Shown here: piece after piece, positions 24,036 through 64,000 of the stretch
How the letters are laid out: the number at the start of each line of letters is the position of its first letter
Position numbering within the stretch: position 1 is the stretch's first letter
Source of the DNA: Haliclystus octoradiatus
Lineage: Eukaryota > Cnidaria > Staurozoa > Stauromedusae > Haliclystidae
Assembly: GCA_916610825.1 (NCBI GenBank)
Contig: OU744453.1
Span: 13,219,751 to 13,283,750, forward strand
Direction of reading: 5' to 3'
Length of the DNA stretch: 64,000 nucleotides
Position numbers and translations under genes: made by a program
Notes under the pieces: model-generated
Databases searched by the model: none
What the model saw: only the letters and a program-made list of their open reading frames with translations
Told to the model about the DNA's origin: nothing

Positions 24036-24400
24036 CATATACAGCTCTAAAGATTCATGTAAATCGTGTTGTGTACGTTACATACTTATTTATAGGTTTC
24101 TATGAAATGCCTATATACACGACTATAGATAATTTATGATAATAATTTAGGTAGTTATGATGAACTGTCCGAATATTAGCATTATCGAACAATGAATTAC
24201 ATTGAATTGTACTTTTCATTAACTCGTTTCAATTATGGAGAACACGAAATGCCCGAGGGAGAAAAGAATGGGATGAGAAATTGTTTTCTTGAAAAAGTAA
24301 GATGGAATGCTTAATACATAGGAGCGTATACTATTGGAAATGAGAATTTCTCTTGCTCTTCCGATCCTGCCGCTAACACTGAAAAAATGGAGAATACCTA

Positions 24401-29199: not shown

Positions 29200-30087
29200 A
29201 TGGCTTATCAACAAACATTTTATTTTGGTTTGAGTCTGAATAAACGTTTTGCTGGGATAGCAGATGAAGATTTTGATGAATTATTAAAATCTGTTGAGGC
29301 TAAAAGTACGAAGAGAGCAACAGAATATTCAATGAAAATATACCGAGGTAAACTACATTTTCATATAATATTATTATTTCAATTGATCGATAAATTGTTG
29401 ATAATCATTACTTATTTATTTTATTCATACTTCTGTTTCACAGATTGGGCGTCTGTCAGAAATGTGATGACTCCATTGGAGGACATGTCTATAGAAATTA
29501 TGGATAAAACCCTTGCCGTATTTTATACGCAGGCAAAGAATAAAAACAGAGAAGAGTACAGTAGATCGACAATAATGGGTCTACGATATGGGATTGGACG
29601 ATACTTGAATAATCCATCCATAAAGAGATTTTTGAAATTCACCAGCGATTCAAAATTTGCCAACTCTAATATAGTTTTTCAGGCTAAATTTATGTCTTTG
29701 GAATTACAACGGAAGGAAAATGTGAAACACAAGGAACCAATCCAAGCAGCCGATCTTACCAAACTACGAACTTCTGGTTTATTATCCTTGCACAATCCAG
29801 TGTCTCTGCAGAGAAATGTGTAGTTCGATTCGTTACTCTTTTGGTGTCGCAGAGGTCGATAAGGACAAATTAAATTGACCAAAAACAGTTTTGTTTTTGC
29901 TGTTGACGACGACAGACGCCAGTATGTCACCATGTCTCACGCATAAAGCAAAAACAATCACCAAGGAGGCATCAACGTCATTGAATCATTTGAGGAATTA
30001 GGCAGGATGTACAATGGGAGTGTAGTGACTGCGACTGCAATTAATGGAGGAGCAATCCCCTACCTGCGCACATTGAGTCATTGGTAA
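29200..30087 (+). pseudogene. Tyrosine-recombinase-like (DUF3504/Crypton-type) pseudogene
   Basis: An open frame from ATG 29200 is interrupted by a 96-bp intron (29348-29443, GAG|gtaaac...cacag), which splices in frame. The protein has the pattern RFAGIADEDFDELL...STKRAT, then STIMGLRYGIGRYL, matching from memory the N-terminal part of DUF3504 proteins related to Crypton tyrosine recombinases. Homology continues past the first stop in the same frame (CRRGR, then DDDRRQYVTMSHA), broken by TAG at 29821, TAA at 29860 and TAA at 29944. With three in-frame stops and no frameshift, it is a fairly young dead copy. The recombinase catalytic residues would lie in the missing or broken part. Confidence 0.55.
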
Positions 30088-30226: not shown

Positions 30227-32046
30227 TCATTTTTTGCCAGATGATCGACGGCGTCTGCGTCTACGTCGACGTCTGCGTCTGGTCCAAATTCTGCGCCTAG
30301 TTACATCAATACCATCAAACGCCACTTCATCTACAACAAAAATAGATAACCATCGCTCATTCTTCTGAAATTATATATTACACTATTCAATCATAGATCA
30401 AATTACGGTAAATACCATTATGAAATAAAATATTTGATGGGAACTATCATTAGCTCTAGATAAATTCTCTCATAGATGGTCCATTGTTAAATATATTACT
30501 AAAAAGTCTTTAATATTCGGAAGCTATCAACCTTCTGATTCAATAATAAAAATGATGCTAACAGTCAGCACAATTGTGCCCATAATTAGGTTAGATTGGA
30601 TTATTGTTTTATTAGATTGGATTTATTGCCGGGCATGCCTCGTATCTATCTTTTAAGGCTACAGAAATGTTAATGCATTATGTCATGAATTATAATTTTA
30701 TACAATTATCTTTGCTTTTCATGGCGTGCCATATGAGCAGAGAATCTTCTAGGCAAAAGACGCACAATCATATCATGTGAGTGATGTGACCTTCAATATT
30801 AATACTTGTAATTAATGTTGCTTGATTGACATGTGCCTTCTATTTAATGACATAATGCATAGAAATGGCAGGTATGGTGTTTAGAAGCTGCCACATGCAT
30901 ACCAAAATGTATTATGTTATATATGAATGAATAATATTTCACTCGTGTTTTACCGTTGATATAATACGCTACTGTTTAATTAAGAATAATCTCTGGAAAA
31001 CTTATATCATTACATGAAAAATCAATGTCGACCGATTTTGATATTATTTAAGAAGTGCTTACGATTAGGCTCAGCTAGGTCATTCCATTCCTCATCAACG
31101 AGTTCGTCACCTTCATCCTCCTTTTCTTGGCGTACACCTTGAAAAAGATATAACATTATAAACAATATTAGTATACCATCTGATTTAAACATCCTTACAA
31201 ACAATTAGAATGGAGTCCAATCTGAATTAAACCATCATATAGGCTATAACAACACGAGCCGGTGTAATATGTAAATGAAGGTTTGAAAAAATAAACTATG
31301 TTATCAGAATCCGATTATTTCGTATGTTTTCCACGAATCATCATTTTAGTGTCACACTATCTTAGTAAGACTAGAGCTTAGTTACAATAATTATGGGATC
31401 TGGTACTGGTTATTTCGTAAAACAGATAATAAAATTAATCAGTTAATTAATCAGATGAACCACAGTCACATCATTACAATTTTTTTCTATCTCAATACAT
31501 ATAATATTCATTGAGTTGAGATTACCTTCGCAGGGGAGATTTCATCAATATTCTATTATTATCCTAGGCAGATACAACTGATTTTATTATAGTTGATACT
31601 ATACTAGTAGTAGAGGATTAGCTCAAATGGCATGGCAACCGAAACTTTAGATCGGATCATATCTGATCGACTATGGTAATCCCCTGAAGGTTAATTCAGC
31701 CTCGGTTTTATCTAAAACTTGAAATGAGTACCATCCAAGGATGGCGGATGGAATGGTCCAGAAGGAATTCCATTGTGAATAGCTGCGGCGCATCGTTGTG
31801 CATTGGCATCGAGACCTATCTGTCATGATTTCTGTAGAATTTGATCTGCAGTGTCACGGCTGAGATCAACAAAGAGTGTTCAAAATCATTTCTATCAGTG
31901 AAAAGAGTTGCATTGCTCCCAGGACAATGTATATATCTTACAGACAAAGTGAAGTTTAATCATCCTAGAAGTTAATCAAATTTTGCATTACTTGCTAGGG
32001 CTACAGCAATCCCCAATAGAATCACCATCAGCAAATACAGCTTCAT
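30227..32046 (-). CDS. Cationic peptide precursor A (poly-Arg, GKK end)
   Basis: Three coding exons on the minus strand, 31992-32046, 31063-31137 and 30227-30330, all phase 1, give 77 aa. Exon 1 encodes exactly an 18-residue signal peptide (MKLYLLMVILLGIAVALA). Exon 2 is acidic (EKEDEGDELVDEEW...). Exon 3 is basic: TRRRIWT, twelve consecutive Arg, SSGKK, stop. GKK at the end could direct removal of the lysines and C-terminal amidation. An acceptor abuts the ATG, so an untranslated first exon ending at 32628 (GAG|gtgagt) is predicted, as in gene D. AATAAA lies at 30118-30123 on the coding strand. Layout and charge pattern suggest a host-defence-type peptide; a DNA-binding or neuropeptide role is not excluded. 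I know no family match. Confidence 0.8.
31612..31915 (+). mobile_element. 3'-truncated tRNA-derived SINE
   Basis: The head GGATTAGCTCAAATGGCATG and body words match the 25.8 kb copy; the tail and duplication are missing. It sits in intron 1 of gene A, antisense to it. Confidence 0.7.
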
Positions 32047-32621
32047 CTAAAAAACATTCACCAATAAACATTTGATTAATTAAATATAATACTATTAAAT
32101 AATTTGTTAGGTGTGCGTTTTGTTTATTATATCTTTTATATCTAGTTATGAAATACCCTGAGGTTCGTCGATGACATACATGTACCCAACCCTTGCCATC
32201 CCACTTGTCATCCACAAACTTTATTGCTGATAATCTTGTGCCCTGTGCGATTTCTGAATGTATTTAATGCGGTTTGTAATTTACAATTATAGGTAACATG
32301 TGTAGCAACATTCCATTGAAGTTCAATTTCATTACTTTATAATCAAGTATTTAAATTACATTACCACAGAGCTTACGAGTAAAATTAATCTAGAATATGC
32401 TAATAAAGTACCGATCTTTGAATCTACAGCTCATAGCTTCATCAAATGGGATTGCTTAGGCAGAGAGTAGAGACTAGTGCCAAGTAATTGGACCTAACTA
32501 GTTGAATATATGTCTAGGAAGAACAAGAATTGGCATGAAAAAAAGATGACAATGATGTAGACTTGACGTAACATACTTTTTATTCCTTAAAGTTATAAGA
32601 AATAAGTAAAGAGAATACTAA

Positions 32622-32770
32622 ACTCACCTCGGATATCGCTCCTGCAAATCTCGGTTGAAATATATCTATCCGAGTGAATGGATGTAGAGTTTATTGGAAG
32701 CTATAGATCCAAATCCAATCAAGCGTCAACAGGAAGATTTTTATTTCAAAAGGCTGTATGAGCTTATATA
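32622..32770 (-). promoter_or_regulatory. Putative TATA box and untranslated exon of gene A
   Basis: Reading the minus strand, TATATAAG at 32763-32770 is followed about 135 bases later by the donor GAG|gtgagtt at 32628. An untranslated exon of roughly 100 nt would join to the acceptor directly before the gene A start codon. Inferred from signals only. Confidence 0.4.
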
Positions 32771-33176
32771 ATAGCCTATAGACATTGCACTGTATGGCGC
32801 TGACTCTAAGCATATTAACCACATGCATTCTTTAAGGTATTCAATACTAATAAATTCAATGCTGATTGTGTGAAGAATTCCGGAACATTACACATCATTC
32901 GAATACTCTCTTTTGTGGTTTGATCATAGGCTATATAATTTTGAAATTTCAACTGAATTCGGCGTTAAAATCGAAAAATCAAGTTTTCTGTAAAAGATCG
33001 CAGCCGCCGCCATGCAGAAGCAAAGCCGCGTACACGTGAAAGTGCACAGCTGGCAAATCTTCAAGCCAAAGCAATAGACAACAAATTTTGATGCAGATGA
33101 AAGATGAATTAAACTATAGTTTCTTCTTTTGTGATTATTTATGTGTGGTGTAATTAAGATGTTAGATTAGTCAGTA

Positions 33177-34125
33177 AATGAAAGTTTGAAAGTTGAATTG
33201 CATTCTCAATTTTATTGTTCTAGTGGGTAAGAAAATCATAAAGTTCGAAATTTGAGTTCAAAAAAACATTGGGAAATGGGCATTCAATGCCCCTCCCGAT
33301 TAATACACAAAGTCATTGGGGGAAAACGCTCAACAATTTCAAAAAAATATAATTAAATATCAGGAAGGTACTTTTGAATAATGTCTATGTTTATGTCTAT
33401 GAAGGTAACAATCTCGAAAGTATTACTGTGGCATTAAAAAGTCTAAAGGATGAGAATCTATTCTGGAAATTTGTGTTTCAAAGTGATGCATTTGAATGTA
33501 TGTCTTCCACTGTGATTTTGACAGATTATAGAAGTGTGTGGTTTTCTATAAAACTAAAAATAGATGCTAAATGGAAAGGTGTTGACAGATTTAGTTTTTC
33601 TTGAACTTTAGATCATTGGTATGCTCATATTTTCCAACAAAAATGTACAAAAAACCACTGTCCATATTAGTTTTTTGATTACAAACGGTTTCCAACAATT
33701 ATTGGACAAATCATAGAAGTTTAAATGAACATCTGTCAACACTTCCACAGAACAGGAAACCACACACTTCTATAATCTGTCAAAATCACAGTGGAAGCCA
33801 TACAGTTCAAATGCATCACTTTGAAACACAAATTTTCAGTATAGGTTCTCATCCAATAGACTTTTAAATGCCACAGTAATAATTTTGAGATTGTTACCTT
33901 CATAGACATGGAAGATTATTCAAAAATACTTTCCTGATATTTAATTATATGTTTTTGAAATTTTTGAGCGTTTTCCCCATTGACTTTGTGTATTAATTTG
34001 GAGGGGCATTGAGAGCCCATTTCCCAAACGTATTTTGAACTCAAAATTTTCAGTTATGATTTTTTCCCCATAAGAACAGTAAAATCAAGAATGCAGTTCA
34101 ACTTTCAATCTTTCATTTTTTTCAG
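33177..34125. repeat. Inverted repeat, ~425-bp arms
   Basis: The left arm (from 'aatgaaagtttgaaagttga') returns as an imperfect reverse complement ending near 34125, around a ~100-bp centre. Arms share 'acacttctataatctg' and 'ggaaagtacttttga'-like words. The 76-codon frame in the left arm is inside this repeat. It lies between the divergent genes A and B. Confidence 0.7.
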
Positions 34126-34692
34126 TCCAATGTACATCATCCCTGTGTGCTAGCGTCAAATTTGACAAAATACATACATACATACACACATACGTATACA
34201 TATTGACCATTTTTAAATTAAATTTCAAGATGGGGCTGCTAACTGGGAACTTGATGTCTGTCTCACCAAGTTGGGACAAATAAGTATAATTATTATCATT
34301 TATGGGACCAACGGACCAACTATGATCAAACTATGGGATTTCGAATAATGTAAACTTTATACAGTACTTCATTTATTTTTGTTTTGTAAATTTGTTTACG
34401 TTATTGTCATCATCATTTCTATTCATAAACCTGATAAGCTACAAGCTTTTATGCTTTTATTCACATGACAGACTCGCATACCTTTAATTAGTTTTTGTTG
34501 CTCAAATAACCGCCTCATTTATAATTGTGTAATCATTTATATAACGTAATGATCAATTATAATTAAATCATGTGCTATCGAACTTTTTATCAAATTTGAT
34601 GATGCCGCTGAGAATTTAGGGGGAGCTTTTAATCTTTCGGGCCGCCATCAGTACAATGCTTATAAACTCAGCTTATGAGCCGTGTTCAACTG

Positions 34693-34809
34693 TAGCCTGC
34701 TCGCAGACTCACTGTCAAAATGTAAATTTGGTAAACACTGTTTACTGTTGGTAAAATTTGCTACTGTTTACCAAGATTACATTTTGACAGTGAGTCTGCG
34801 AGCAGGCTA
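34693..34809. mobile_element. 117-bp hairpin MITE
   Basis: Ends TAGCCTGCTCGCAGACTCAC and complement pair over ~45 bp. The flanks GTTCAACTG and GTTCAATTG (34684-34692, 34810-34818) are a 9-bp duplication with one mismatch. The paralogous copy 2 lacks it. Confidence 0.75.
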
Positions 34810-36196
34810 GTTCAATTGATGATTGATTGATTTATGTCCCTGGGGGGAGGGGGTTATTGAAAAATATTGCCCTGATACCGCAGGGTGTTGAAACTTGAAT
34901 GGCTTTTTCACTGGCTGTTTTGCAAACCCCGACGTGCATGCTGGCTGTTCGAAATAAAATGTTGAAAATAACTAAATAAAATTCCATTTAATTGAACTTG
35001 AATAATTTCATTAATATAGATTGAGCTCTTTCTAAATTCAAATGTTTTAGTAATCGATGATAATTGATGATTATATCAGTGCTAGTAATTAGCAATCTGC
35101 ACACGCGGAATTATTTCCAAAATCATAAATACAGAATGATTGGCAAGCTCAACGCTCATTTTTTGATGAGTTTCGATGACGTATCGAAGTTACACAGTGG
35201 ACTGCTTGGTCGCAGTTGTCAGTTTTAACAACCACATCTTATTCTAGCGCCCCGACGCTTTGATGCAGCGAAGAGGGTAATGCCGCATACAAAACCCTAG
35301 GCAGCATTTCTTGCATTGTGAGCCTGTATTCCTACATTATTATGCGGTAAACTGTTCTGCAAATAATCAGGTTCATAAAAATCTGAATGTCGGTACAGCA
35401 TGAAGATTGCAAACAATTGAACGACAGCTCCTAGGGCTTATCTATTTACCCCTATCTATTCACGAGTATACGCTATCATCAACAATGAGCATACCGAATA
35501 GGCAAACCCTATACCTATATATCATACATGTGCACAGTGCATAATAAGGTAAACCATAAACGGATACAAATAATATAAAATAGTCTAAATTGCATATCAT
35601 TACTGACTAGTTTTTCACACTCCTATAGTAAAGATTATTAGTATAGTTATCTTATATATTGGTTATAGTTAATAACCAATTTAAATATTTTGTATCGCAT
35701 AATTTCTGTATGTATTTGTAAATTATGTAATTGCGATAATATGTAAGTGGAAGTTTACTCCCTTTATTTGCCAGTCAGAATTTTCTACTAATAAATCAAC
35801 AACAACAATCAACAAACTAATAATTCAAAATTTAATTTTGAAAATATTACAAAATTAAATGCTACAGTAATTGATACTATTTCATATTTCACATGGATAA
35901 AATAAACATGCTTCATTAAAATCCAGGCTAAATATATATTCGTATTTCATACATGTACATCCCTAAAAGGGGGCTAAAAGGGGGCATCTGGAATTAATTC
36001 AATTGATCTACATAATTCAATAAATCCTGTGTAATTAACCCTTATATATTCAAATGAAAAGGCATTTGTTTGACAATAGCAACATAGAAATTCCAAGCTG
36101 TGCTAAGTTCTTCCTGTGTAGCAGCTATAAAGTTCATTCTGCAGTAATCAATGTTCACAACTTCATGGTTTTGGAAGCAAGGAAAATCAATCAGAC

Positions 36197-38768
36197 ATGA
36201 AGTTGATAATTCTGTTTACGTTGTTTGGGCTCTTTTGCGTTGCCTTCTCAAGTAAGTTTCAAATTTGAGCCACTCTTATATTGATATTTGAGGAATTACT
36301 ATAAATGAAATGAATTATATTGCTCCTGAAATATATTTCGGATGTTTAATTAATTTCGAGAGATGTAGATATATAGGTCTCATCTCAAATTAGTTCAATA
36401 TTTATTGAGTCTATTAATTGCCTTGTTTATGGGCGTTTTGCGTTGCCTTCTCAAATAAGTTTTAGCTTTGAACCACTCTTGTTTTTATATTAAATGAATG
36501 ATTTTAAATAAAATAAATTATATTGCTCCTGAAATGTATTTCGGGTGTTTAATTAATTTCAAGAGATGTAGATATAGGTCCCATCTCAAATTAGTTCAAT
36601 ATTTATTGAGTCTATTAATTGCATTGTTTATGGGCGTTTTGCGTTGCCTTCTCAAATAAGTTTTAGCTTTGAACCACTCTTGTTTTTATATTAAATGAAT
36701 GATTTTAGATAAAATAAATTATATTGCACCTGGGATATGTTTTGGGTGCTTAATTAAAGATTTAGGTCTCGTCTCGAGATTATTTAAATATTTATTGAGC
36801 CTGTTTTTGATGGTGTTGTATTTTTATTTTTGTAGCTGAAGAGAAGGATGAAATTGAATTAGAAGATGTAGAAGAAGACCCAGGTTAGTGAAATTATTTG
36901 TAATTTTTAAATATCTTATTTATTTTTAGTTAAGAAGTTCACGTTCAATTTTATTTCTTTTGCCTAGCCTAGCCTGCTACCGTACTACGTACGCCTATAT
37001 ATTCCTAAACCTTCAATTTTGTTCTGAGTTCCATTATAAAAGTTATTTCGTTCGGGTAGTGTCTATTATGTATTTCCATTGATTTATGCCATTTAATTCA
37101 TTTTTGTACAAAATAAACTGCGCATCAATATGTAGGATAGACCATGCTGTTGTATTTTATCCTGATTTTATCTTGAATTATCATACTATCTGAATTGTAG
37201 TTATCCAATAGTGTATGAGGCATGTGCTGCTCTCGAATCCATATATACTCTGAATTTTATTTGTCTGTCTCTATCTTGGTGGTCTCAAAACCATAATATA
37301 TTCCGTTTGGAGAAAGTTTAATATCAATATATATTAAAACGAAGGCATGTCCGTTACAAAATCTAAGGAATTTAATACTACAGTATATGATTGTATAATC
37401 GGATTGTAACGGACTTTAATCTTTAGGAGTTGACTCTCTTGCAGTACTTTAACGCCGGGAAATTAACACCAGCTTTACATGGACGGAAAAGTATCTATGG
37501 TGCTTGCAGACGTCTGTATGGTGCCACTTCAGAAAACAATGAAGTACCCAAAAATGCTGGAAGTGCTACTCAAAAAGTTTAAATTGCCGGTAAAAAGTTC
37601 CAAAAACATAAAAACTGTTTTTGAAATTCGAGATTTTTTTCAAAATTCGTTAGAAAGTCTAAACAGAAGACCCAAGAAGCACCAAATCTGACATTTCCTA
37701 GATAATAAATGTATATATATACATTTATAATATAGACCTCAAAATAAGTCACATGCCCCCTAAAGCCGTCATAGGGGATTTACCCACTGGAACACGTAAT
37801 TTACTAGAACTTGGTAATATTAGGCATCAAAATGTTTATGTTCATTATTGCTTCATTTTTTTTAGCAGCGGAAGAGGATGATGAGCATGATCGAGGTAAA
37901 ATTACTATAATATCTGCTATTTATTTACCTTTACAACTTTTTGATATGTTTTCTTTCTACTAAAATACCAAATGACCTCAAACGAATGTACATGTGCTAT
38001 GCTAGGTCAATCTATTGATGTCTAACAATTACTTTCTGCGGTACTGTTTTGATTTTCCAAGGAAAAACCTGGGGATAAAATCTGCATCAATCGGCATATG
38101 TTTTTAAGTGAAATTAATGTTGTTTACCTCCCCTGAACCGTCCCTTGAGCACTAGATTTCGAAACTTTTCATTGTTTCTGTGATTGACAACTTCTTTATG
38201 GGTCTGTGCTGGCTATAAACAATTCTGTTACGATACACTTGTAAATTAATCGTGGTACCACAAACAATGAAAGTGTAGGGAAACTTCTACACCCCTACGA
38301 AATTACTTACAAATTTGACATTTTCTTAGTACGAGATCTCGTACATATTTTCTGTCAATGTTATTGCTTTATTATGTCTGAACGCATCAAAATAGCAATC
38401 ACGTTTGTTAATTTTGTGTGTTTCTTGTATGTTTCAACTAGAAAAAATATGTTATGCTGGTTCTTAATAATAAAATTACGTGCATACATTCTTCTGTTTA
38501 GCCATTAAATAATTACTCTTTTTTATTTGTAGAGGACCCACTGCTTGGATTTGGACGTCGTCGTCGTCGTCGTCGACGCTCTAGTAGACGCCGCCGTCGC
38601 CGCCGCTTTTTAGGTATGGGAGACACACCTACTGAAGTTGATGGAGATGAACTTGCTGACGAAGGAAACGTTGAAGATCAACATGATCCAAGTCCCTTTA
38701 TTGGTGGAATTTTTCATCTGCGTGGCATAGGCGGTGGACGCAGACGAAGATCCTTCGGAAAAAAATAA
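36197..38768 (+). CDS. Cationic peptide precursor B (two basic modules, GKK end)
   Basis: Exons 36197-36251, 36836-36883, 37866-37895 and 38533-38768, all introns phase 1, give 122 aa. Exon 1 is an 18-residue signal peptide (MKLIILFTLFGLFCVAFS). Exons 2 and 3 are acidic (TEEKDEIELEDVEEDP; AAEEDDEHDR). Exon 4 encodes FG, eight Arg, SS, seven Arg, FLG; then an acidic spacer (PTEVDGDELADEGN...); then FIGGIFHLRGIGGGRRRRSF and GKK. The precursor therefore holds two basic segments, each preceded by acidic sequence. The Arg run is coded by CGT/CGA/CGC repeats. The exon 3 acceptor is TAG-CAG, a tandem site that can add or drop one Ala. A TATATAT near 36044 may be the promoter core. Close paralogue of gene C. 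Function inferred as host defence; unproven. Confidence 0.85.
36228..36720 (+). repeat. Tandem ~202-bp units containing dead copies of the signal exon end
   Basis: The end of exon 1 ('tttgcgttgccttctcaa') and following intron recur at 36440 and 36641. In both copies the donor AAGTAAGT has become AAATAAGT, so only the first is a functional splice site. Gene C intron 1 has a single such repeat (48278). Confidence 0.85.
37452..37792. mobile_element. GGGGTAACTCC-family MITE in gene B intron 2
   Basis: Core words 'aagtacccaaaaatgctgga' and 'gccccctaaagccgtcatag' place it in the family; ends are worn. The same insertion is in gene C intron 2 (48885-49172), so it predates the duplication. Confidence 0.65.
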
Positions 38769-39068
38769 TTTCTCAATTTGGAAATTATCTAGAAAGCAGT
38801 TGATCTATTCCAGTTGAAGTTCAATTTTTGTATCCAATTTAATGTTTTAATAGATTGTGAATTTCCATTCAAATTGTTGTGGATACTTTGTATGCATGCT
38901 GTTTTCTCGGTTTTGAGTGTTGCTCAGAAGTATTTCTTGACTTGACATAGCCTCATTCCGTCCATGCCCTCGTTTCCATTCTGCGCTATACAATGAGGGT
39001 TAATTGATCAACAGTTTAGTAAAATTATATTTAAAATTATTAATGTTGTTTATAGAATTGACAATATA

Positions 39069-39300
39069 GAGGGCCATTTACACTGCAGCAAAACAGGCAC
39101 GGTACTCTTCCATTAACACCTGAGGTGTTAGCAAGAATGCGACCCCTGCTGGGTTTTTTCAGGGAGTTTACACTAGCCTCATTCCATCACGGCCATCATT
39201 ACCGCGCGGCGCTCCAGTGAGGGCCTAATAAAATGTAAGGTCAAAAAGTGTGCCAGAAACCAAAAAATCTGGTGTGCCCAATCACAGCGCACCTAGCTTG
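39069..39300. repeat. Two adjoining transposon end fragments
   Basis: 39069-39165 matches the end of the element at 54316 ('ggccatttacactgcagc', 'aggcacggtactc'). From 39173 ('tagcctcattccatcacgg') the sequence matches the left end of the element at 57451. The rest of both is missing. Confidence 0.65.
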
Positions 39301-40718
39301 ATGCCATGTACAAATGTAAATTTGCCACAGATATAAATAGATAGTTAGTTTTTTCTTAAGTTGTAATTAAATTTCATGTATTGTCCTTTTTTAAATATGT
39401 AATAAAATATCAATGTAAATATAATTTACTACCTTAAACAAATTTCCCGTTTATTGATTAATTGTGTATAATAAAAATGGATATATTAAAAAAAACAGAC
39501 AATAGACAACAAAATGGGATGAAAATGGATGATGAAGAAGATTATACTTTCTTAATATTGTGATTATTTATGTTTAATTAAGATGTTCGGTTAGTCAGAT
39601 TAATTTTAGTGTTTTCAGTTGCAATTCTCTGCTCAAACTCTTTTGTAAATTACATCCCAAAACATCCCACAAACACCCCGTTCTATCAAATATTATCTAT
39701 TGAAAGTAACAGCTACAGCTACAATGAAAATCGTAGTGAAATAAATCTCAAACCTTTTGAAATCTCCTGCCATCCCCCGTCTATAATTTCTCAATTTATT
39801 CAACAAAAGTTCAAGGCAACAAATTACCGAATCAAAAACCTATTCAAAAAGTCAACTGAAATGAAGCCAGAGGATTTGTAGCAATCCGCATCAATTTAGT
39901 AATATATTTCCGATAATTCATTTTTTTCCACACTCGGAACGACAGTCGGGTTGACATAAAGATTCGTATCTCGTTTCGATCGGAATCGAAAGTTTTTAAT
40001 TTCCAAGTCAGCTACGCCCACACCCTCAGACCACCTTTTCTGCTCGAAAATGGGGTATAACCGTATACTGTATTCAACACTAAATATCCCCGCGTATACG
40101 CGCGTAAATTGAAATTTTCACCATTCTTCATGATTTAGCTTGAAGCTAAAACTACCCGAATCTGGTTTGAAATTTGTTCGTGTAATATGCACTTCAAGAG
40201 AACTAGAATGCAAATAATGCGATTAACGATTGGGTTTAATTCTTTTCACAACTGAAATTATCTTACAATGATTCCGATTGGCTGTACTACATTATCACGT
40301 TGAAACAAAACTGATTTCATTATAGACAATTAGAATTACAAATTATTAACCCTTACAATTAATTTGCTAGCTTGTAATTAAAACTGATAAGAAACGTAGT
40401 AACATGTAAATGATGCAAACAAGGTGATGATTGATCTGGTAGCTCTGGCTAAAATGGGTTGCATAAGTCGACAGTTCTTGTTTGAGTTATACACATGCAA
40501 ATTGGTCAGGTTATCCATGAGATAGATTTTTCGAAACACTTAAAATTATAAACAGAATTGACAAGTCTCTTAGCAGAAAGTTTGAGATTTATAATTTTCA
40601 AGTTACATGTCAGCAAGTGATAGTACAAAATGTTACACTTTTTCATTTTTTAAGAATTAGCAGTAATCATAAATAGATATTATCAAAAAATGTGAAAATA
40701 GAATGCTCTTTATCTCTT
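39301..40718. other. Intergenic between convergent genes B and D
   Basis: AATAAA at 39401 may serve gene B. The 90-codon frame at 39609-39881 has no signal or motif. The words around 40120 ('caccattcttcatgattta') recur near 52450 in the centre of the large foldback element. No gene recognised. Confidence 0.4.
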
Positions 40719-43700
40719 TCAGCCTCGACCACCAGAGCGAGAACGAGAACGAGCTTCTACACCTACGCCCCGGCGGCGAAGGAGATGACTACGACGACGA
40801 ACCATAGGATTTCTTCGACGCTGATGTATACGAGCTTCACTTGCATCAGCTGAAAAAGCAACAATAGAGAATTAAACGAATTATGTATAGTGGTCTAGAA
40901 TTATGTATAGTGGTCTAACGTTGTAGTTATTCTTTCATCTAACGTCTATTGATCATTTCCTATAAATCTATTCATATGTAGAATTTATAGACGTAAATGT
41001 GGGATTCATTTCAAAATTGAAGCAGTAATCCTTTGTCGGGGGGAGGGGGGGTGGATAATTACAGTTTCATATTGGGGTACCACTTTGAAAAACACCAAAG
41101 TACCCAAAAACTTCACAAAAATCACGTCAGTTTTTAATTTTTGCTGATAGGAGACAATAAAATATGGCAATTAGGACTATAAATCGTAATTACACTTATA
41201 TGATTGAATATATATATAAATGCATTAATCTTCATTCTTGCTTAGTCATTTCACGACATATTAATGTTTGTCAGTGGATAGTACTTTGAACAAATCCGCA
41301 TCATAAAAAATTAATTTTCAGCTTATAGATCCATTTTGATACGTCTGCCTCTCCCAATTGGACAATTCCAAATCATAGTTATATTCCGAACGTGCATTTT
41401 TAATAATTTACATTTAATTTTGTGGAACATCATTATAGTTATTGAAATTACTTTTAGAAATTTGATGGTTATGTGTATTTGCCATTTTTTTTTTAGAAAA
41501 TGACAAAACAACAGACTATTATAAAGTAATGTCTTCATGGGAACGTTTGAAATACGGAATACGGAAGGAAATCTACGGACAATTTTAAAACTATATATAG
41601 AGATCTGAAGTTGTATTTTGCATTTCCATAACCCATGTTGTATGGATATATATCATTTTAAGTAATAGATTTTTAGATTCAGTGAATATCGTATTAACAT
41701 CCTGCAAATGTTTTTTGCTAGTGTTTTTTTGTTGCGACATACGTTTTCTAAGATTGCTAAGTTGTAAGTGTTTTTTTTTTAATACGAAGTATAATGTAAA
41801 CAGTGTTTGCACAGAGCTGTCAATATTTCGACCAAGAATAGCTACTGTTTTACAACAATCAGAGTACGTAGGTCCTGTTTACAAGGAAGGCAAGTTACCC
41901 GGGTTGGCGAGTTACTTGCCTTACCGAGTTAAATGTGTTGTGTGTTTACAAGTAAACTTTAGTGATTTAGTTATCAGACATGGTTCTGATCTAAGAGTTT
42001 ATAGGATGTAGCTTTATTCACTTAAGAGTTAATGTGTTTATACCTATTCCTAAAGAAGATATCCGCCCTCAACCATTTCTAGGAAATAGCCTCCCATGCG
42101 GTAGGCTCTAGCGTTGTTTCGTTTTCATATATAGATTTAATCAGATCAAATATAGGATTTGGTACTGTAGGCATACTATTTGGCGTTTAAAGCATTCATA
42201 AAACCAAATGTGGGAATAAGAATGACCACATTTGACGTATTATTAGTAATGCAACTCACCAAAGTCTTCAAAATTGAAACCAGTGGGAGCTAAAGATAAA
42301 AAAGAAACATTTAATGATCTATAGAGGCTTCATTGAACAGAAAAGTCAAAACAGTCAGATACCTTTACGATTGATAGATGGAGCTTTATTTTAACAGTTG
42401 AAGCTTTACCCTAAACATTATTGACGTCACCTCTCAAGCATTTCGCTTTCTAAGAGTAAAGGTAAGGGAGTTTTTTTTTAATTCTTGTCCAATTATTCAT
42501 GTCCATATATGTAACAATTATCTTCAACTGTTGGTAATTGATCAGGACAGTTGGGAGAAATTTCAGGCCTAATGGAATCTCCTAAAAACATGGCACAAAA
42601 ATTTTCCTCGGCGCTACGCTCGCGAAATATTGCAATGATCACTTTACGTGGATGTACAATTTAAACACGCATGGCAAAACTTTCTGCGGCTGATTCATTT
42701 ACGGACGGATACTACTCATCAACTTTCTTTCAATTTACTGTTAACATATTTTGATCGGACTCCGATGAAGTCGCCAAATCTATTGCTCGATACCCCCCTC
42801 CCTCAAAGAAAATTTCTCGGGATTGCCTTGAGTATAGCATTCTTGTTTGAGGGACGCAAGATTACATGATTAATCATTTAACAAATTACAAACAACTTAT
42901 GCTATGCTCTTATATATAAATTCATTATAGAAACTTAATGTTCATGTGCTATAGCCGAATTAGATAATAGTATTCAATAGTAATTGCACTGCAACTCAGA
43001 TATAGATGAATGAAGAAAAAATAAATTAGGGATATCAGAAATAAAACTTGAAATTAAGATAAAGTACAAACATTGCAGTTATTGATGGAGCATCGGCTAT
43101 AATAATGATCAGATAATTAAATAGGACCGATGTCAATTGACCGATGGATTATCTTCAAAACGCATATCAAACATCGATTGTATTACAGATATAATTACTA
43201 TACTCACGTTTCTCCAAGGCCATACTCTCCAATTCATCTTCATCAAATTCATCTTCACTTTCCTCATCAGGGTCGAATCCTATAGACGTTTAATGGTAAA
43301 GGTTTTATAGATAGTAATTTACGTTTTGTCAATTGTTACACATGTCATTGTTATCAAGATGATATAATGAGAACTAAGAAAGTGCAACTCAAATTTGCGT
43401 TTTCAAGAGTTTTAAAAAGTTCATAACATTGATTTTACATTTTATCTTACGTTTACGAAAATAATCCAACTAAACTGTAATTAACATCTTCAAATATTAT
43501 TCAAATCTAAAAACTACTTCTAATTCGGCCGATATCAGTATACGGTATACCATCCTCAATGATATGATTTTGTTGACCTCATTTACGACATTTTCAAAAG
43601 AAAGTATCATTATTGTCCCCACTATTGCGTGATTAGAATTACTCAAATGAGGGGTTTTCAGCATTTCGGATGCCGCATACTGGGAAGTTGGGAAAACATT

Positions 43701-43953
43701 TTTTTTTCAATATTTTTTCATAGTAAGGATTTTCGTGAATGATATTTTTGACATGTCTCTGTTGCATAAGGATGCCCCCCGAGTCTATATTACTTTTCTT
43801 TGCGAATAAAACTTCACATCTGGACTTAATAAGAACATAATGATATTTTAGATGACCGATTTCGTCTATCAATAAACAATACTTCGACTTACTTGCAGAC
43901 TCGGAGACAACAGCAATTGCTAGGAAAGTGAATATCAGCCAAGTTAAATTCAT
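40719..43953 (-). CDS. Cationic peptide precursor D
   Basis: Minus-strand exons 43893-43953, 43208-43279, 42260-42289 and 40719-40849, all phase 1, give 97 aa. Exon 1 is a ~20-residue signal peptide (MNLTWLIFTFLAIAVVSESA). Exon 2 is very acidic (DPDEESEDEFDEDELES). Exon 3 is short (PPTGFNFEDF). Exon 4 is basic (RIHQRRRNPMVRRRSHLLRR, then a GVGV turn and RSRSRSGGRG). It ends in Gly rather than GKK; a terminal Gly could itself be an amide donor. An acceptor touches the ATG and a donor at 44122 (AACT|gtaagt) marks a likely untranslated first exon, the same arrangement as gene A. I infer that A and D are paralogues. The ATG-proximal exon also reads as part of a longer unspliced frame, which is not real. 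Confidence 0.8.
41036..41122. repeat. Truncated GGGGTAACTCC-family MITE
   Basis: Words 'gggggagggggggtggat' and 'aaagtacccaaaaacttc' only; it lies in gene D intron 3. Confidence 0.5.
41872..41951. repeat. Truncated Harbinger-type MITE
   Basis: 'ggtcctgtttacaaggaagg' and 'gttacccgggttggcgagtt' match the end of the 17652 element. The other end is absent. Confidence 0.65.
42745..42840. repeat. Fragment related to the hAT-type MITE at 24401
   Basis: 'gactccgatgaagtcgccaa' and 'tacccccctccctcaaa' match 24420-24475 in reverse orientation. It lies in gene D intron 2. Confidence 0.6.
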
Positions 43954-45811
43954 CTGAAATTTGAAATAAATTTCTTATGTTAACAACCTTGAAAATACAG
44001 AATGTGTGAAAAAATCAATAAAAATAAAGAAATATATTAAAGAAATGTAATTAACAAGAATATAGCTTGAATTGTTCAAATCAAAGTTCAAATTATTGAT
44101 GCTAACATCTAAATAACTTACAGTTGGAAATGTGTTATGCACGACCAAGAAGTTTTATCACCACCAGATAGAATCTAATTTTATTTTATTATCAAAAGAC
44201 GAAAAGCATGCTTGACATGACAGGAACAATTTGGTACATGACAACGTAGCAGTAATGTCCTCAATGAATGCCGTCATAATGCATTTATTTGTTAAGATTT
44301 CCAAAGCCGTTTTCTCGAATAGGTGTTGATATTCAAATTGTTGGCAATGAGCGAGTATACTATAAATTGTTTGTTCGTTTGCTTGTTTAATGCATGTCTC
44401 TTATCAAAGTTAAAAGATCTATTCTAGTAATTTTGCCGGGAATTTTGCTTTTATTAATTATTCTATTAATTAACTATTCAACGGCACATATAAGTGGATG
44501 TACATCCATGTGTGCTCGCGTCATATTTGACAAAATACATACATACATATTGACCATTTAAAAAAAATTAAATTTCAAGATGACTGACTGATGGGCTGAC
44601 TGGGGATTTGATGTCTGGCTCCCCCCAGTTGGGACAAATTAGTATAATTATTATCAATTAATTATTGAACCAACTGACCAATTATGATCAAATTATTGGA
44701 ATTCGAATTTATATATAAATTCTTTACTGTAGAGCAGTTACTTCGGTTTTGAAAATTTGTTTATGTTTTTATTTTCATCATCTTTATTTCTATTCAGAAA
44801 TCTGACAAGCTACAAGCTTTTATTCAACATGACGGACTCTCATACCTTTAATTTAGATTAGTTTTAGTTGCACAAGTAACCGTCACATTTATAATTGCGT
44901 GATCATTAATATAACGTAATGATCAAATCATGGGCTATCGAACACTATATCAAATTTGATGATGTTGAGAATTCAGGGGGCTAGAATCTTTCGGGCCCCC
45001 ACCAGTACAATGCTTATAAACTCTTTAATTCACCAAACGCTGCTATTGTTCTCCCTACATGGAATGTGAGATCACAGCTTGAAACAGACGGGAAGGCTTC
45101 GATATTTGCGGTCAAACCCTTCTTACTTAAAAAGCATATAAAATCGAACAGGAATATAATTTACACTATCAACTTGATATGATGCTACGGTAAAAAAACT
45201 AGGAATCTAAATTTATTAAAATTTTTCCAAAATCAACCGAAATGACTAATGACTTTTGTAACTAACTAATGACTTTGGCATTGGTTGTTTTGCAAACCCC
45301 GGGGGTGCATGCTGGCAGTTCAAAATAAAATGTTGAAAATTAACCGTAAATAAAATTCCATTTAATTGAACTTGAATAATTACTTTAATATAGATTGAGC
45401 TCTTTCTAAATTCAAATGTTTTAGTAATCGATGATAATTGATGATTATATCAGTGCTAGTAATTAGCAATCTGCATATGTGGAATCATGCCCAAAATAAA
45501 TACAGACTGAGAATGAATGACAAGCTCAACGCTCGTTTTTGATGAGTTTCGATGACGTATCGAAATTACATAGAGGACGGCTTGGTCGCAGTTGTCAGTT
45601 TTAACAACCACATCTTATTCTAACGCCCCGACGCTTCGATGCAGCGAAGAAGGCAATGCCGTATACAAAATGCTAGGCAGCATTTCTTCTTTCTTGCATT
45701 GTGAGCCTATATTCCTACATTATTATGCGGTAAATTGTCCTGCAAATATCAGGTCCACAAATATCTGACTGTCGGCACAGCATGAAGATTGCAAGCAATT
45801 GAACGAGTGCT

Positions 45812-47498
45812 CTATGGTGGCCCATCGTTGCCATAGCGTTTTTTTTGGAAAAAAATTTACGCCATGGCCCATTGTTGCCATAGTAAAAAAAATTTTTACC
45901 ACGTGGCCCATCGTTGCCATAGTATAATATTTTTAAATGATGGCCCATCGTTGCCATAGCAAAAAAATTTTTACCACGTGGTCCATCGTTGCCATAGTAT
46001 AATATTTTTATATGATGGCCCATCGTTGCCATAGTATAATATTTTCACTATTTTCATAAAATTTTATTTTCCGAAATCTTATTTTATAGCCATTGGATAT
46101 AGCAATATTTATATATATATTACAATATAGCCAATAATAATATATTCTACAATGTTGCAAACAACTCGAAAAATGACAAAACTACTACTACTACTACTAA
46201 CTCGAAAAATGAGTCAGAAACAGCATATAAAAGGCCAGAATTCTAGCCCAGAATGAATATTTACTTTATTATTGATTCATTAGCGATCGACTTCGGACGT
46301 TTTTATTCTTCGTACAAGTTGCTACTTGACACACTGTTAAACAGTAGGGTATAGCTCCAACAACTGCTTGCCAATATATCAATATTTTCCACAAATAATA
46401 ACTGTTTCAAGCAGTATGCATTACAGCATTAGCAAAAATTTACAAACTTTCATAACAAATCAAGTAATGAAATTAGCCTTATTGAAGATTAATCAAAGAT
46501 ATCAAAGTACCGTCTCGTTACTCCAGAGTTAACCCTTAAAGTTTTTGCTATGCCAGCGCTCAACGTAGCTAGCTACAACAATTTTTCTTTAACAATTTAA
46601 CTTATTATCTTAAAATTGATATATTGACAAGTGACAACCTTTCGAGCCTGGAGTTCCACCCTACTGTTTTAACAGTCTGTCATAGCTAGACCTAGACCTG
46701 TTGAACAGACATAAGTATATGTGAATTATTATTTCCTGTGAAACAATATAATTGATTAATTGTAACTAGACTATTGAAATATTTAGGTTGGACATATCCA
46801 AATCCAAACGTGAATTTGCGAATGTAAGATAATGATGATTGATGACGATGATTTCAGAACTCTCCTGAGAATTATAATTACATATTATTCTTTGACTCCC
46901 GATAATTAGTGATCGTAAGTGTATGCATCATTTACATTGTATACTGCATAGCCAAATAAACCATATCATTTACTATACTTCTGTTTAACTTGTACTACAC
47001 ATTCCCATGTTTTTTAGTTATATTGTATACCATATTACATTAAAGATATGAAATAGTGCTCAATCTCAATGTCAGCATTTGACAGAGCTAAATATAACAG
47101 AAGGAATCAAAGACAAAACATGCACAACATGGCACAGCGTTTTAAATAAAAAAATAACTTAACAATAAACATTTAATTTATGAAAAAGTAAAACAATTTA
47201 CTATGGCAACGATGGGCCATCATTCAAAAATATTATACTATGGCAACAATGGGCCACGTGGTAAAAATATTTTTGCGATGGCAACGATGGGCCATCATTT
47301 AAAAATATTATACTATAGCAGCTATGGGCCACGTGGTAAATTTTTTTTGCTACGGCAACGATGGGCCATCATTTAAAAATATTATACTATGGCAACGATG
47401 GGCCACGTGGTAAAATTTATTTTACTATGGCAACAATGGGCCATGGTGTAAAAAATTTTTACAAAAAAAAACGCTATGGCAACGATGGGCCACCATAG
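45812..47498. mobile_element. Foldback element with tandem GGCAACGATGGGCCA units
   Basis: Both ends (CTATGGTGGCCC / complement) lead into arms of ~250-300 bp made of tandem ~47-bp units with the word 'atggcccatcgttgccatag'. Copy 1 of the duplication has the uninterrupted sequence (35424, 'acgacagctcctaggg'), proving insertion. The flanks show TGCT to GTGCTC as duplication, 4-6 bp depending on where the end is placed. No transposase is present, and the open frames across the units are artefacts. Confidence 0.85.
46328..46681. mobile_element. Nested element with ~32-bp inverted ends
   Basis: 'gacacactgttaaacagtag' and, at the other end, the complement of 'gacagactgttaaaacagta' form imperfect inverted repeats inside the foldback element. 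No coding content seen. Confidence 0.55.
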
Positions 47499-48036
47499 TG
47501 CTCCTAGGGTTTACCTATTACACCCATCTATTCACGAGTATATATGCTATTATCAATGAGTATACCGACTAGACAAACGCTACACCTATAGATCAAACTA
47601 ATAATTCAAAATTTAATACAAATATTACAAAATTAAATGCTACAGTAATTGATACTGTTTCATATTTCACATGGATAAAATATATATGCTTCATTAGATC
47701 CCAGGCTAAATATTTACTCGTATTTCATACATGTACATCCCTAAAAGGGGGCTAAAAGGGGGCATCTGGAGGCGTTGATGTTTTCTTGCATACATCCGTA
47801 AAATAAAAATGTTCCTGTTTTTTTTCTAACAAAGTGTGACACCAGCAGCGCAAATACAACTTCTTCCTTCATGACGGAATACACATACACTTGCTAAAAC
47901 CCAATTCAATACATGAATCAAAAACTAGACATTTCAAGCTGTGTTAACTTCTTCCTGTGTAGTAGCTATAAAACTCATTCCCCACGAACAATATTCACAA
48001 TTTCCTTGTTGTGGAGATTGATAACTAAAATCAGAA

Positions 48037-50145
48037 ATGAAGTTGATTGTGCTGTTTGCGTTGTTTGGGCTCTTTTGCGTTGCCTACTCAAGTAAGTTTT
48101 AACTTTGAGCCACTCTTATATCTATATTTGATGAATTATTATAAATGAAATGAATTATATTGCTCCTGAAATATATTTTGGGTGTTTAATTAATTTCGAG
48201 AGATGTAGATATAGGTCTCATCTCAAATTAGTTCAATAGTTATTGAGTCTATTAATTGCATTGTTTATGGGCGTTTTGCGTTGCCTACTCAAATAAGTTT
48301 TAGCTTTGAACCACTCTTGTTTTTCTATTTAATGAATAACTTTTAAATAAAATAATTATATTGCTCCTGAAATATATTTTGGGCGTTTAATTATAGATTT
48401 AGGTCTTGTCTCGAGATTCTTTAAATATTTATTGAGCCTGTTTTGATGATGCTGTCTTTAATTTTTGTAGCTGAAGAGAAGGATGGAATTGAATTTGAAG
48501 ATTTAGAAGAAGACCCAGGTTAGTGAAGTTATTGGTCATTTTTAAATCTATTATTTATTATAAGTGAGTAAAGGCTCGCGTGCAATTTTATTTGTTTTGC
48601 CTTGCTTACTAGTACACCTATATATTCCTATACAACTTATTCAATTTTGATCTGATTGGTCTTATTTATTCCGTTCGGGTAGTGTCTATTGTGTATCTCC
48701 ATTAAATTCTATTTGTCTCAATCTCTTTGATCTCAAAACCATCATTCGGTTTGGAGTAAGTTTTAATATCAATATATATATTAAAACGTAGGCATGCCCG
48801 TTACAAAATATAAGGAATTTAATACTGTATGACTGTATATTCGGATTGTAACAGACTTTAATTTTGAGGAGTTGACTCTCTGGCAATACTTTGACACCAG
48901 CTTTGCATGGACGGAGGTATCTTGGTACCTGCAGACGTCTGTGTGGTACCACTTTGCAACAGTGAAGTACCCAAACACGCTGGATGTGCTACCCAAAATG
49001 TTTAAATTGCAAATAAAAAGTTCCAATAACATCAAAAGTTTTTTCGAAATTCATTAGAAAGTCAAAAATGAAGACCCAAGAAGCACCTAAATCTGACATT
49101 TCCTATATAATATATGTATATGTGTATTTTTTTAATAAGACCCCCCCCCAAAAAAAAAGTCATAACCTGCTGGTTTAACACGTAGTTTACCAGTACTTAG
49201 TAATAGTAGGCATCAAAGTGCTAATGTTCATTGTTGCTTTATTTTTTTTCAGCAGAAGAGAATGATGAGCTTGATCAAGGTAAAATTACTATAATATCAA
49301 TTATTTAATTACCTTGACAGCTTTTTGATATTTTTCTACTAAAGTACCGAATGACCTCGAACGAATGTACATGTGCTATGCTAGGTCGATCTATTTATGT
49401 CTAACAAATAATTTCTGCGGTACTGTTTTGATTTTCCAAGGAAAAACCGGGGATAAAATCTGCATAATCGGCATATGTTTTCAAGTGAAATTAATGTTGT
49501 TTACCTCCCTTGAACCGTCCCTTGAGCACTAGATTTCGAAACTTTTCATTGTTTGTGTGATTGACAACTTCTTTATGGGTCTGTGCTGGCTATAAACAAT
49601 TCTGTTACGATACACTTGTAAATTAATCGTGGTACCACAAACAATGAAAATGTAGGCAAACTTCTACACCCCTACGAAATTATTTACAAAATTGACATTT
49701 TCTTAGTACGAGATCTCGTACATATTTTCTGTCAATGTTATTGCTTTATTATGTCTGATTGCATCAAAATAGCAATCACTTTTGTTCATTTTGTGTGTTT
49801 CTTGTATGTTTCAACTAGAAAAAATATGTTCTACTGGTTCTTAATAATAAAATTGCGTGCATACATTCTTCTGTTTAGCCATTAAATAATCACTCTTTTT
49901 TATTTGTAGAGGACCCACTGTTTGGATTTGGACGTCGTCGTCGTCGTCGACGACGACGACGCTCTGGTAGACGCCGCCGTAGCCGCTTTTTAGGTTTGGG
50001 AGACGCACCTACTGAAGTTGATGGAGATGAACTTGCTGACGAAGGAAATGTTGAAGATCAAGAAGATCCAAGTCCCCTTTTTGGTAGATTTCGTCGTCGC
50101 ATCCGCTTCAGACGCAGATTCCGCGTATTCCGCGGAAAAAAATAA
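48037..50145 (+). CDS. Cationic peptide precursor C (two basic modules, GKK end)
   Basis: Exons 48037-48091, 48471-48518, 49253-49279 and 49910-50145, phase 1 throughout, give 121 aa. The gene is collinear with gene B exon by exon (55, 48, 27 versus 30, and 236 nt). The signal peptide is MKLIVLFALFGLFCVAYS. Exons 2 and 3 are acidic (TEEKDGIEFEDLEEDP; AEENDELDQ). Exon 4 has FG, ten Arg, SG, RRRRSR, FLG; the conserved acidic spacer; then LFGRFRRRIRFRRRFRVFR and GKK. The last basic module alternates Arg with bulky hydrophobics, unlike the Gly-rich module of gene B. The exon 3 acceptor is CAG-CAG. The large foldback begins 189 bp after the stop, so the 3' end formation may differ from gene B. Confidence 0.87.
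48885..49172. mobile_element. GGGGTAACTCC-family MITE in gene C intron 2
   Basis: Orthologous to the gene B insertion at 37452: same position, same internal words ('aagtacccaaacacgctgga'), one end degraded to a C/A run. Confidence 0.6.
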
Positions 50146-50333
50146 TTTCAAGCAGTTAGAAAATTAATCTATTCCAGCTGAAATTTTTGTGTCCATTTTC
50201 ATATTGTTTTAATAGATTGTGAATTCCATTCAAATTGTTGTCGATAGTTTGTATGCATACTGTTTTTGTCGGTTCTGAGTGTTGCTCAAAAGTGTTTCTT
50301 GGCTCAACGACGTAGACTCCTTCCGTCCAGGAC

Positions 50334-62812: not shown

Positions 62813-63477
62813 TACAAGCGTGAGTTGTAAATGACGTGCGAAATTGTCTCTTCTAAAGGTTATGTCGCAGCAGAATTAAAACATTTTAATAAACCAAATA
62901 AAACCATGACGACTGGCTAAGCAGTTTGATGTAATAAATAACTTCAGAAAACAATACAAACAATAAATATATAATACTGTCTTGTCTAAGCCCCCAACCA
63001 AATGATGAATTGTCGGTTCAAAAGTTCGCATGGTCAAAACACAACAATAATTATCTTCGAAGTTTCACCTCAAATAGTGATGTTACAGAACGATTAAAAT
63101 CTTTCATTAACCATTTCAAATGACGAGAAGAAGAACACAATCATGTGTTCTACAAATGAAGAGATAATCACGATGTAAACTAATCCAGGAGTATTAGAAA
63201 ATTTTCATTTAAAAATGCAATTGTAATCTCGCTAAGCTGTGAGTCGGCCATCATGGCGGGCAATGGAAAAAATTTTTTTTGTCAAAAAAATTTGGCTAAA
63301 AATTTGGAATAATCACACAGCATGCCAATTGTATTTTTAACAATAAAATGGTGTTTCTTGCGCAATCGTTTTTTGTTCGTCCTTTGTTAGCACGCAAAGC
63401 AGTGTGTTGAACGTTATTTCAAAAGAGCAATAGATTTAGTCAAAAATGAAATGAAATGAAATGAAAACGTTTCCACC
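62813..63477. other. No gene recognised
   Basis: AT-rich; a short (AAATG) prelude at 63445-63465. Confidence 0.5.
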
Positions 63478-64000
63478 ATGAAATGAAATGAAATGAAATG
63501 AAATGAAATGAAATGAAATGAAATGAAATGAAATGAAATGAAATGAAATGAAATGAAATGAAATGAAATGAAATGAAATGAAATGAAATGAAATGAAATG
63601 AAATGAAATGAAATGAAATGAAATGAAATGAAATGAAATGAAATGAAATGAAATGAAATGAAATGAAATGAAATGAAATGAAATGAAATGAAATGAAATG
63701 AAATGAAATGAAATGAAATGAAATGAAATGAAATGAAATGAAATGAAATGAAATGAAATGAAATGAAATGAAATGAAATGAAATGAAATGAAATGAAATG
63801 AAATGAAATGAAATGAAATGAAATGAAATGAAATGAAATGAAATGAAATGAAATGAAATGAAATGAAATGAAATGAAATGAAATGAAATGAAATGAAATG
63901 AAATGAAATGAAATGAAATGAAATGAAATGAAATGAAATGAAATGAAATGAAATGAAATGAAATGAAATGAAATGAAATGAAATGAAATGAAATGAAATG
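63478..64000 (+). repeat. (AAATG)n microsatellite array
   Basis: About 104 perfect pentamer copies continue to the window edge without a visible mismatch; the true length is unknown. Confidence 0.97.

Follow-up and report, generated by a model that had tools for sequence, protein, structure and literature searches.

Four divergent genes for predicted arginine-rich secreted peptides in the stalked jellyfish Haliclystus octoradiatus, and their likeness to Hydra arminin

Gene content of the locus

Chromosome 8 of Haliclystus octoradiatus (Staurozoa, Cnidaria; contig C10 of the assembly searched here) carries a cluster of four genes for short secreted precursors with arginine (Arg)-rich ends, which probably belong to a large Haliclystus family of amidated host-defence peptides that would work like arminin of Hydra, with an acidic pro-piece masking the basic part. 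The cluster occupies positions 30227-50145 of a stretch of 64,000 bases (contig OU744453.1, positions 13,219,751 to 13,283,750 of the forward strand), referred to below as the window. Rebuilding from the sequence yielded four complete gene models, A (minus strand), B (plus), D (minus) and C (plus), which form two head-to-head pairs and confirm an earlier note, made from the letters of this DNA, that had placed four spliced genes of a common plan here: in each, a signal-peptide exon is followed by one or more acidic exons and an Arg-rich last exon, and all coding introns are GT-AG introns of phase 1. The predicted proteins comprise 77 (A), 121 (B), 97 (D) and 121 (C) amino acids, and the starts of the paired genes are 4.15 kb (A/B) and 4.08 kb (D/C) apart. 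The exons are as follows.

30227..30330, minus: gene A last exon, Arg-rich tail ending in SSGKK and a stop codon; AG acceptor; AATAAA at 30123
31063..31137, minus: gene A acidic exon, net charge -9
31992..32046, minus: gene A signal-peptide exon, ATG directly at the acceptor
32628..32740, minus: gene A untranslated 5' exon, predicted only, upper end approximate; TATA box at 32770; consensus donor GAG/GTGAGT
36197..36251, plus: gene B signal-peptide exon; TATA box at 36126
36836..36883, plus: gene B acidic exon 2, net charge -9
37869..37895, plus: gene B acidic exon 3, net charge -6; NAGNAG acceptor, alternative start at 37866
38533..38768, plus: gene B last exon, comprising an Arg block, an acidic spacer and a second block ending in GKK and a stop codon
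40719..40849, minus: gene D last exon, Arg-rich tail ending in SGGRG and a stop codon
42260..42289, minus: gene D short exon 3, net charge -2
43208..43279, minus: gene D acidic exon, net charge -12
43893..43953, minus: gene D signal-peptide exon, ATG directly at the acceptor
48037..48091, plus: gene C signal-peptide exon; TATA box at 47967
48471..48518, plus: gene C acidic exon 2, net charge -8
49253..49279, plus: gene C acidic exon 3, net charge -6
49910..50145, plus: gene C last exon, comprising an Arg block beginning EDPLFGFGRRRR, an acidic spacer and a second block beginning EDPSPLFGRFRRR and ending in FRGKK and a stop codon

Per exon, the acidic exons have net charges of -2 to -12 and the last exons of +11 to +15. 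Without their signal peptides the precursors come close to neutrality, at +5 in A, -4 in B, +1 in C and -2 in D. The longest Arg runs reach 12 residues in A and 10 in C, and the C-terminus is GKK in A, B and C and a bare glycine (Gly) in D. In both A and D the AG of the acceptor touches the ATG, as previously noticed; the untranslated first exon that had been predicted for both is plausible for A, with its TATA box and consensus donor, and less so for D, where a candidate donor is found at 44121 with no good TATA box close by.

Within the 64 kb, stretches of 20 residues that include nine or more Arg are confined to the four loci, where both strands of the exons concerned contain them; 20 Markov shuffles of the window contained on average 0.0 such stretches each, or 0.15 if eight Arg were accepted. 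An independent search for start codons that lead into a hydrophobic stretch and then a phase-1 donor returned exactly the four signal exons from the same 64 kb.

Duplication of genes B and C

The segment that carries gene B (34138-38964, plus strand) is duplicated as the segment that carries gene C (44503-50329, plus strand), with 85-94% identity in exons and 81-95% identity in introns, which bears out the earlier view of B and C as duplicates. The lengths of all four exons and the TATA boxes are kept, and by these identities B and C are a young duplicate; since introns and exons are about equally similar in it, the intact frames of B and C are by themselves weak evidence of function. Genes A and D, at the matching positions upstream of B and C, have no nucleotide similarity to each other at an expectation value (E) of 1e-3.

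Divergence between B and C is higher in exon 4 than in intron 3 (28 of 227 versus 29 of 630 sites, Fisher p 1.5e-4), with 199 of the 227 aligned sites identical in the exon, which also has 18 gap columns, and 601 of 630 in the intron. The changes in exon 4 fall mostly in the Arg blocks and far less in the acidic spacer. Positive selection on the Arg blocks was considered and is not supported, both site classes having diverged alike (synonymous divergence, dS, 0.41-0.44; nonsynonymous divergence, dN, 0.20-0.36); since dN is not usefully above dS, the claim is limited to fast change of the basic blocks.

Intron 1 of both genes contains extra partial copies of exon 1, which cover the last part of the signal peptide and have an altered donor (36233-36757 in B, 48256-48312 in C); those in B form a tandem repeat of 201 bases. 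The C segment is interrupted by an inserted element of 1685 bases at 45813-47497, which has perfect terminal inverted repeats of 34 bases and inverted subterminal arrays of 75 bases, and the B copy has the empty site near 35430.

A family of loci across the genome

Searches covered the genome of 261.86 Mb in 33 contigs, among which C1, C4, C6, C7, C8, C10 and C11 are, by size, chromosomes 1, 3, 5, 6, 7, 8 and 9, respectively. Its mitochondrial contig has COX1 on the opposite strand to COX2 and, judged by eye, ATP6, which is the arrangement of medusozoans. Protein C as a query found new loci, and four further complete models were built: E on chromosome 1, F and G on chromosome 7, and H on chromosome 9. 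E and H have the exon plan of A-D (signal, acidic and Arg-rich last exons with phase-1 introns); in F and G, which form a third head-to-head pair, the signal and acidic parts lie within one exon and the introns are again of phase 1. The acceptor that touches the ATG in A and D recurs in F, G and H. The C-terminus is GKK in H and a bare Gly in E, F and G. Another four F/G-type first exons, with 65-84% identity, were noticed at positions 20028347, 20078954 and 20086265 of C8 and 20326256 of C7.

At E values up to 10, F and H as queries gave 8 and 46 exon matches, of which 6 fall at 20.03-20.09 Mb of C8 and 34 on C11, respectively, and the tails read from these matches mostly begin D-P-x-P-W and continue with Arg runs. 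A DNA pattern for D-[A/P]-[K/R/N/S]-P-W-x-x-[R/S]3 matches the genome at 33 places and its reversed control at none. The matches are distributed over C8 (14), C11 (15), C4 (2), C2 (1) and C10 (1), so that 29 of 33 are on chromosomes 7 and 9, largely clustered and in both orientations. All 17 pattern matches that were read (14 complete, 3 partial) continue in frame with an Arg run, L069 and L088 having just five Arg. Another 12 loci that were read are missed by the pattern (A-G, L062, L066, L067, L071 and L085). The total is thus 45 loci (29 that were read and 16 known only from the pattern), which is a count of last exons and not of 45 proven working genes. Two other DNA patterns were less informative: a 22-base promoter pattern matches B, C and E without mismatch and three other sites with two mismatches, a census overall no better than its control (2 + 6), and a polyArg pattern, swamped by simple repeats, gave 8052 + 6770 matches versus 7570 + 8366 in the controls.

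Among the 26 complete last exons, which include several near-identical paralogues and are thus not independent, 14 end in GKK, 4 in GK, 4 in G and 4 without Gly, an amidation-type end being present in 22. L071 has no amidation end and is nevertheless included in both the 45 and the 26. Cysteine is absent from 25 of the 29 tails read (the exceptions being F, L069, L093 and L095). The signal exon is conserved across loci while the tails vary: matches to residues 1-19 of H, 14 including H itself, are 89-95% identical in 13 cases and 84% in one. The short stretches read as L073-L081 cover only first or second exons.

Two candidates were dropped from the family, L070, for want of a discernible plan, and L072 (G000:C6:22131712-22132169), an unrelated secreted precursor that starts acidic and has a tandem unit of at least five PEFARRRRHGS copies.

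L005 (positions 1-1581; G000:C7:1291480, minus strand) contains an intronless gene for a tyrosinase of 412 amino acids (PF00264, E 1.1e-28) that starts with a signal peptide of the B/C type. The corresponding bases match exon 1 of B at 43 of 55 positions and that of C at 46 of 55, and the 17 bases preceding the ATG agree with those of B at 14; it looks as if the tyrosinase gene either acquired this signal exon or was its donor. An end similar to that of the 1685-base element also lies near this gene, at about position 2098 of L005.

The earlier suggestion that the family expanded as divergent pairs gains from the third pair, F/G, and loses from the concentration of 29 of the 33 pattern matches in mainly clustered regions of chromosomes 7 and 9, in both orientations, and from A and D not being nucleotide duplicates.

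Proposed processing and function

In the scheme proposed for these precursors, the acidic piece would keep the peptide harmless inside the secretory granule, and the near-neutral totals (-4 to +5) fit an acidic part that masks a basic part. The pro-piece would be cut at acidic residues, with trimming halted at the next X-P (D-[A/P]-[K/R/N/S]-P); a carboxypeptidase would then take off KK, and a peptidylglycine monooxygenase would convert the Gly to an amide. The freed peptide may bind anionic microbial membranes or nucleic acid and so kill or shape bacteria, the microbial killing being argued here by analogy. That the precursors of A-D are expressed and processed in this way is what we infer.

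The second block of C (EDPSPLFGRFRRR...GKK), which contains D-P-S-P-L-F-G, is its family-like part, and the first block (EDPLFGFGRRRR) has the same start. With an acidic spacer between two basic blocks, B, C and E would be two-peptide precursors, each yielding two peptides.

The relevant part of an account of cnidarian neuropeptides describes N-terminal processing at residues such as E, D, S, N, G or A that halts at P or X-P, and amidation from ends of the GR/GK type (PMC6909153). The family junctions D-P-K-P-W and D-A-R-P-W agree with the N-terminal rule, as does the arminin cut D-A/K-P-W. The copper monooxygenase family PF01082, to which amidating and other enzymes belong, is represented in the genome by 25 exon matches, 22 of them over the cut-off.

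Weight of the evidence

The last exon of each model was scored with a profile of 14 family tails and compared with 4000 shuffles of itself, and the numbers of shuffles scoring as high were 0 for C, 0 for E, 35 for A, 349 for G, 547 for B, 1124 for F and 1876 for D. By this measure C fits the family well and A weakly, and B is a member as the duplicate of C; D, F and G are members by architecture only.

Several observations weigh against placing the four window genes in such a family of defence peptides. In the profile test D, F and G fail, B taken alone is not significant and A is weak; when the profiles of the window four and of the family are compared, the match reaches 97%, but over only 31 columns of the signal and acidic start. 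As genome queries A and D each match their own exons only, at three places each. In 4 of the 26 complete last exons the amidation Gly is missing. The long Arg runs offer many potential dibasic sites, so that the gene does not reveal the mature peptide, and the usual antimicrobial peptides are more amphipathic than long polyArg tracts.

Against this background, other explanations were considered. That the genes are an artefact, with simple CGT/CGC repeats read as polyArg and chance exons around them, is scarcely credible: the Arg exons do read as basic on both strands and CGT repeats are present elsewhere in the genome, but Tandem Repeats Finder reported no array at the Arg-rich exons of the window, and the Arg codons of the last exons are mixed, with five types in A, which together argue that these exons are not microsatellites. 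The 20 shuffles without a single stretch of nine Arg per 20 residues tell against an artefact as well, as do the recurrence of the whole exon plan on other chromosomes and the empty control of the motif census. It is more conceivable, though still unlikely, that the four window genes, though genuine members of the family, are silent or partly decayed, the active paralogues being those in the clusters on chromosomes 7 and 9. Many antimicrobial-peptide paralogues of Hydra are without detectable expression, according to part of a published survey (PMC10945409), no good core promoter lies close to the first exon proposed for D, which also fails the profile test, and some cluster members are without the amidation Gly; yet in A-D the reading frames, splice sites, start codons and stop codons are all intact, and B and C retain their TATA boxes and the lengths of all four exons.

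Two further alternatives accept the genes and change the role of their products. Secreted amidated peptides might instead be cytolytic or polycationic content of nematocysts, or serve in stalk adhesion or in binding nucleic acid or mucus, and this we regard as rather improbable. Stalked jellyfishes belong to the venomous cnidarians, venom families too are typically clusters of variable secreted peptides, and very long Arg runs would suit the binding of polyanions; the precursor plan, the near-neutral total charge and the amidation end, however, match the precursors of the antimicrobial arminins, and 25 of the 29 tails read are without cysteine. A neuropeptide-like signalling role is less probable again. 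Acidic spacers, X-P starts and G, GK or GKK ends are the processing signals given for cnidarian neuropeptides in the relevant part of the account cited above (PMC6909153), but each Haliclystus precursor has one or two large Arg-rich blocks rather than many short copies, its paralogues differ strongly in their tails, unlike conserved ligands of receptors, and 45 loci are in our judgement above expectation for a signalling peptide. A host-defence role as secreted, amidated peptides appears the probable one for the products of A-D.

Database and literature searches

No Pfam family scored above the cut-off for A-D or H, none of 431 candidates in a protein database search with C reached E 0.001, and Rfam and tRNA scans found nothing. 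The aligned A-D had a single match in the protein database (the 8000 candidates sharing most words being scored), a nemuri-like protein of Ostrea edulis at E 1.7. Kinship to this protein was rejected as composition only, the profile match consisting of 12 Arg columns and the score with a profile of 9 tails being -19.0 bits with composition correction. A search with H, three other tails and an arminin row, over the 8000 candidates sharing most words, returned only arminin 1a and 1c, which match by construction. Searches of open-licence papers on staurozoan antimicrobial or arminin-like peptides gave no description of the Haliclystus family in the titles and opening lines of abstracts among the matches listed, and the papers listed for arminin together with staurozoans had no occurrence of arminin; one screen mentions, in the part concerned, three predicted antibacterial peptides from Staurozoa (PMC11820242).

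The earlier proposal of a new or poorly described defence-peptide family is upheld in part, by the 45 loci and by protein and literature searches that yielded no described family apart from a resemblance to arminin, the defence function being what we infer; to its statement that it recognised no described family can be added that the closest one is arminin of Hydra.

Other features of the window

Scattered exons at about 16300-24050 (plus strand) resemble by eye a kinase of the MAP3K type, one of them matching Pkinase below the cut-off (E 4.7e-4). Just past the 3' end of gene A, an open reading frame at 29200-29823 is weakly QRICH1-like (E 0.074). Another at 58320-58643 has a GIY-YIG-like stretch just below the Pfam cut-off (E 2.6e-4) and is perhaps a remnant of a retroelement. 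Positions 63444-64000 are an AAATG satellite with 97% matches and about 111 copies up to the end of the window.

Comparison with Hydra arminin and other systems

Arminin was chosen as a candidate from the GKK end, before the family motif was known. Arminin 1a and 1c (88 amino acids) and A-H alike are short precursors that consist of a signal peptide, an acidic pro-piece and a basic C-terminal peptide, which in Hydra and in Haliclystus contains Arg and tryptophan (Trp). The net charge after the signal peptide is -1 in arminin 1a versus +5, -4, +1 and -2 in A, B, C and D. The terminal GKK is common to arminin, A, B, C and H, whereas D, E, F and G have a bare Gly instead. The junction is N-D-A-K-P-W in arminin versus S-D-P-K-P-W or S-D-A-R-P-W at Haliclystus pattern loci; all 33 of these lie outside the window, and A-D do not have the D-x-K-P-W junction. 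The Haliclystus tails are dominated by Arg runs and are without the hydrophobic second half of arminin 1a, and B, C and E, unlike arminin, have two basic blocks. The paralogues are clustered, as reported for arminins in part of the Hydra survey (PMC10945409).

When a hidden Markov model of 9, and then of 14, Haliclystus tails was compared with arminin 1a and 1c, the score of either was reached by 3, and with the larger model by 1, of 10000 versions with a shuffled mature part; shuffling over more of the precursor gave 0 of 10000, and the mature-part shuffles without composition correction gave 9 and 10 of 10000 for arminin 1a and 1c. These shuffles favour a likeness in residue order and not in composition alone. 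With K-P-W and GKK held fixed, 1211 and 1379 of 10000 shuffles scored as high (1915 and 2119 without correction). Since that many shuffles score as well with these residues fixed, the arminin signal sits in the junction and the end, and because the likeness depends on a short motif, homology is left open. The nemuri-like control scored -19.0 bits corrected and 19.7 uncorrected with the 9-tail profile, as compared to 16.6 uncorrected for arminin 1a; the higher uncorrected score of the control indicates that Arg content alone scores strongly. In hhalign comparisons with the family, two arminins gave 92% and arminin 1a alone 88%, over about 60 collinear columns, versus 77% over 12 columns for the nemuri-like control and 62% over 33 columns for an unrelated Haliclystus precursor. 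BLASTP of H found no match in arminin 1a, and in arminin 1c only the signal-peptide stretch (E 4.0).

It is likely that the Haliclystus family works like arminin. Its homology to arminin is put forward more tentatively, as a possibility that falls somewhat short of even chances: both would descend from an old medusozoan family in which the D-x-K-P-W junction and the amidation end were kept while the tails turned over, and which would have several tens of genes in stalked jellyfishes, including the two-peptide offshoot of B, C and E. Arminins are stated to be confined to Hydra in part of the published survey (PMC10945409); the window being from a staurozoan, either this restriction or the membership in the arminins is wrong. 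Kinship with arminin, if real, would run counter to the published view of arminins as exclusive to Hydra and would make the origin of arminin testable. The Haliclystus tails are also a natural series of Arg/Trp peptides for activity tests.

The nemuri-like protein of Ostrea edulis also has a signal peptide, an acidic stretch and an Arg-rich block, but it has no amidation end and its match is not significant. The cnidarian antimicrobial peptides damicornin and aurelin likewise come from secreted precursors that combine a pro-piece with a basic mature part, but they are, by general description, stabilised by cysteines and without Arg runs. AMP1-4 of the placozoan Trichoplax share with the Haliclystus precursors a signal peptide, an acidic N-terminal part, a basic C-terminal part and a C-terminal Gly, but they are longer, at about 150-250 amino acids, and were called arminin-like by architecture; they are compared here by description only, as given in part of a paper of 2025 (PMC12013895). 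In number, the approximately 45 Haliclystus loci compare with the 28 periculin and nine arminin paralogues listed for Hydra vulgaris AEP in the corresponding part of the Hydra survey (PMC10945409).

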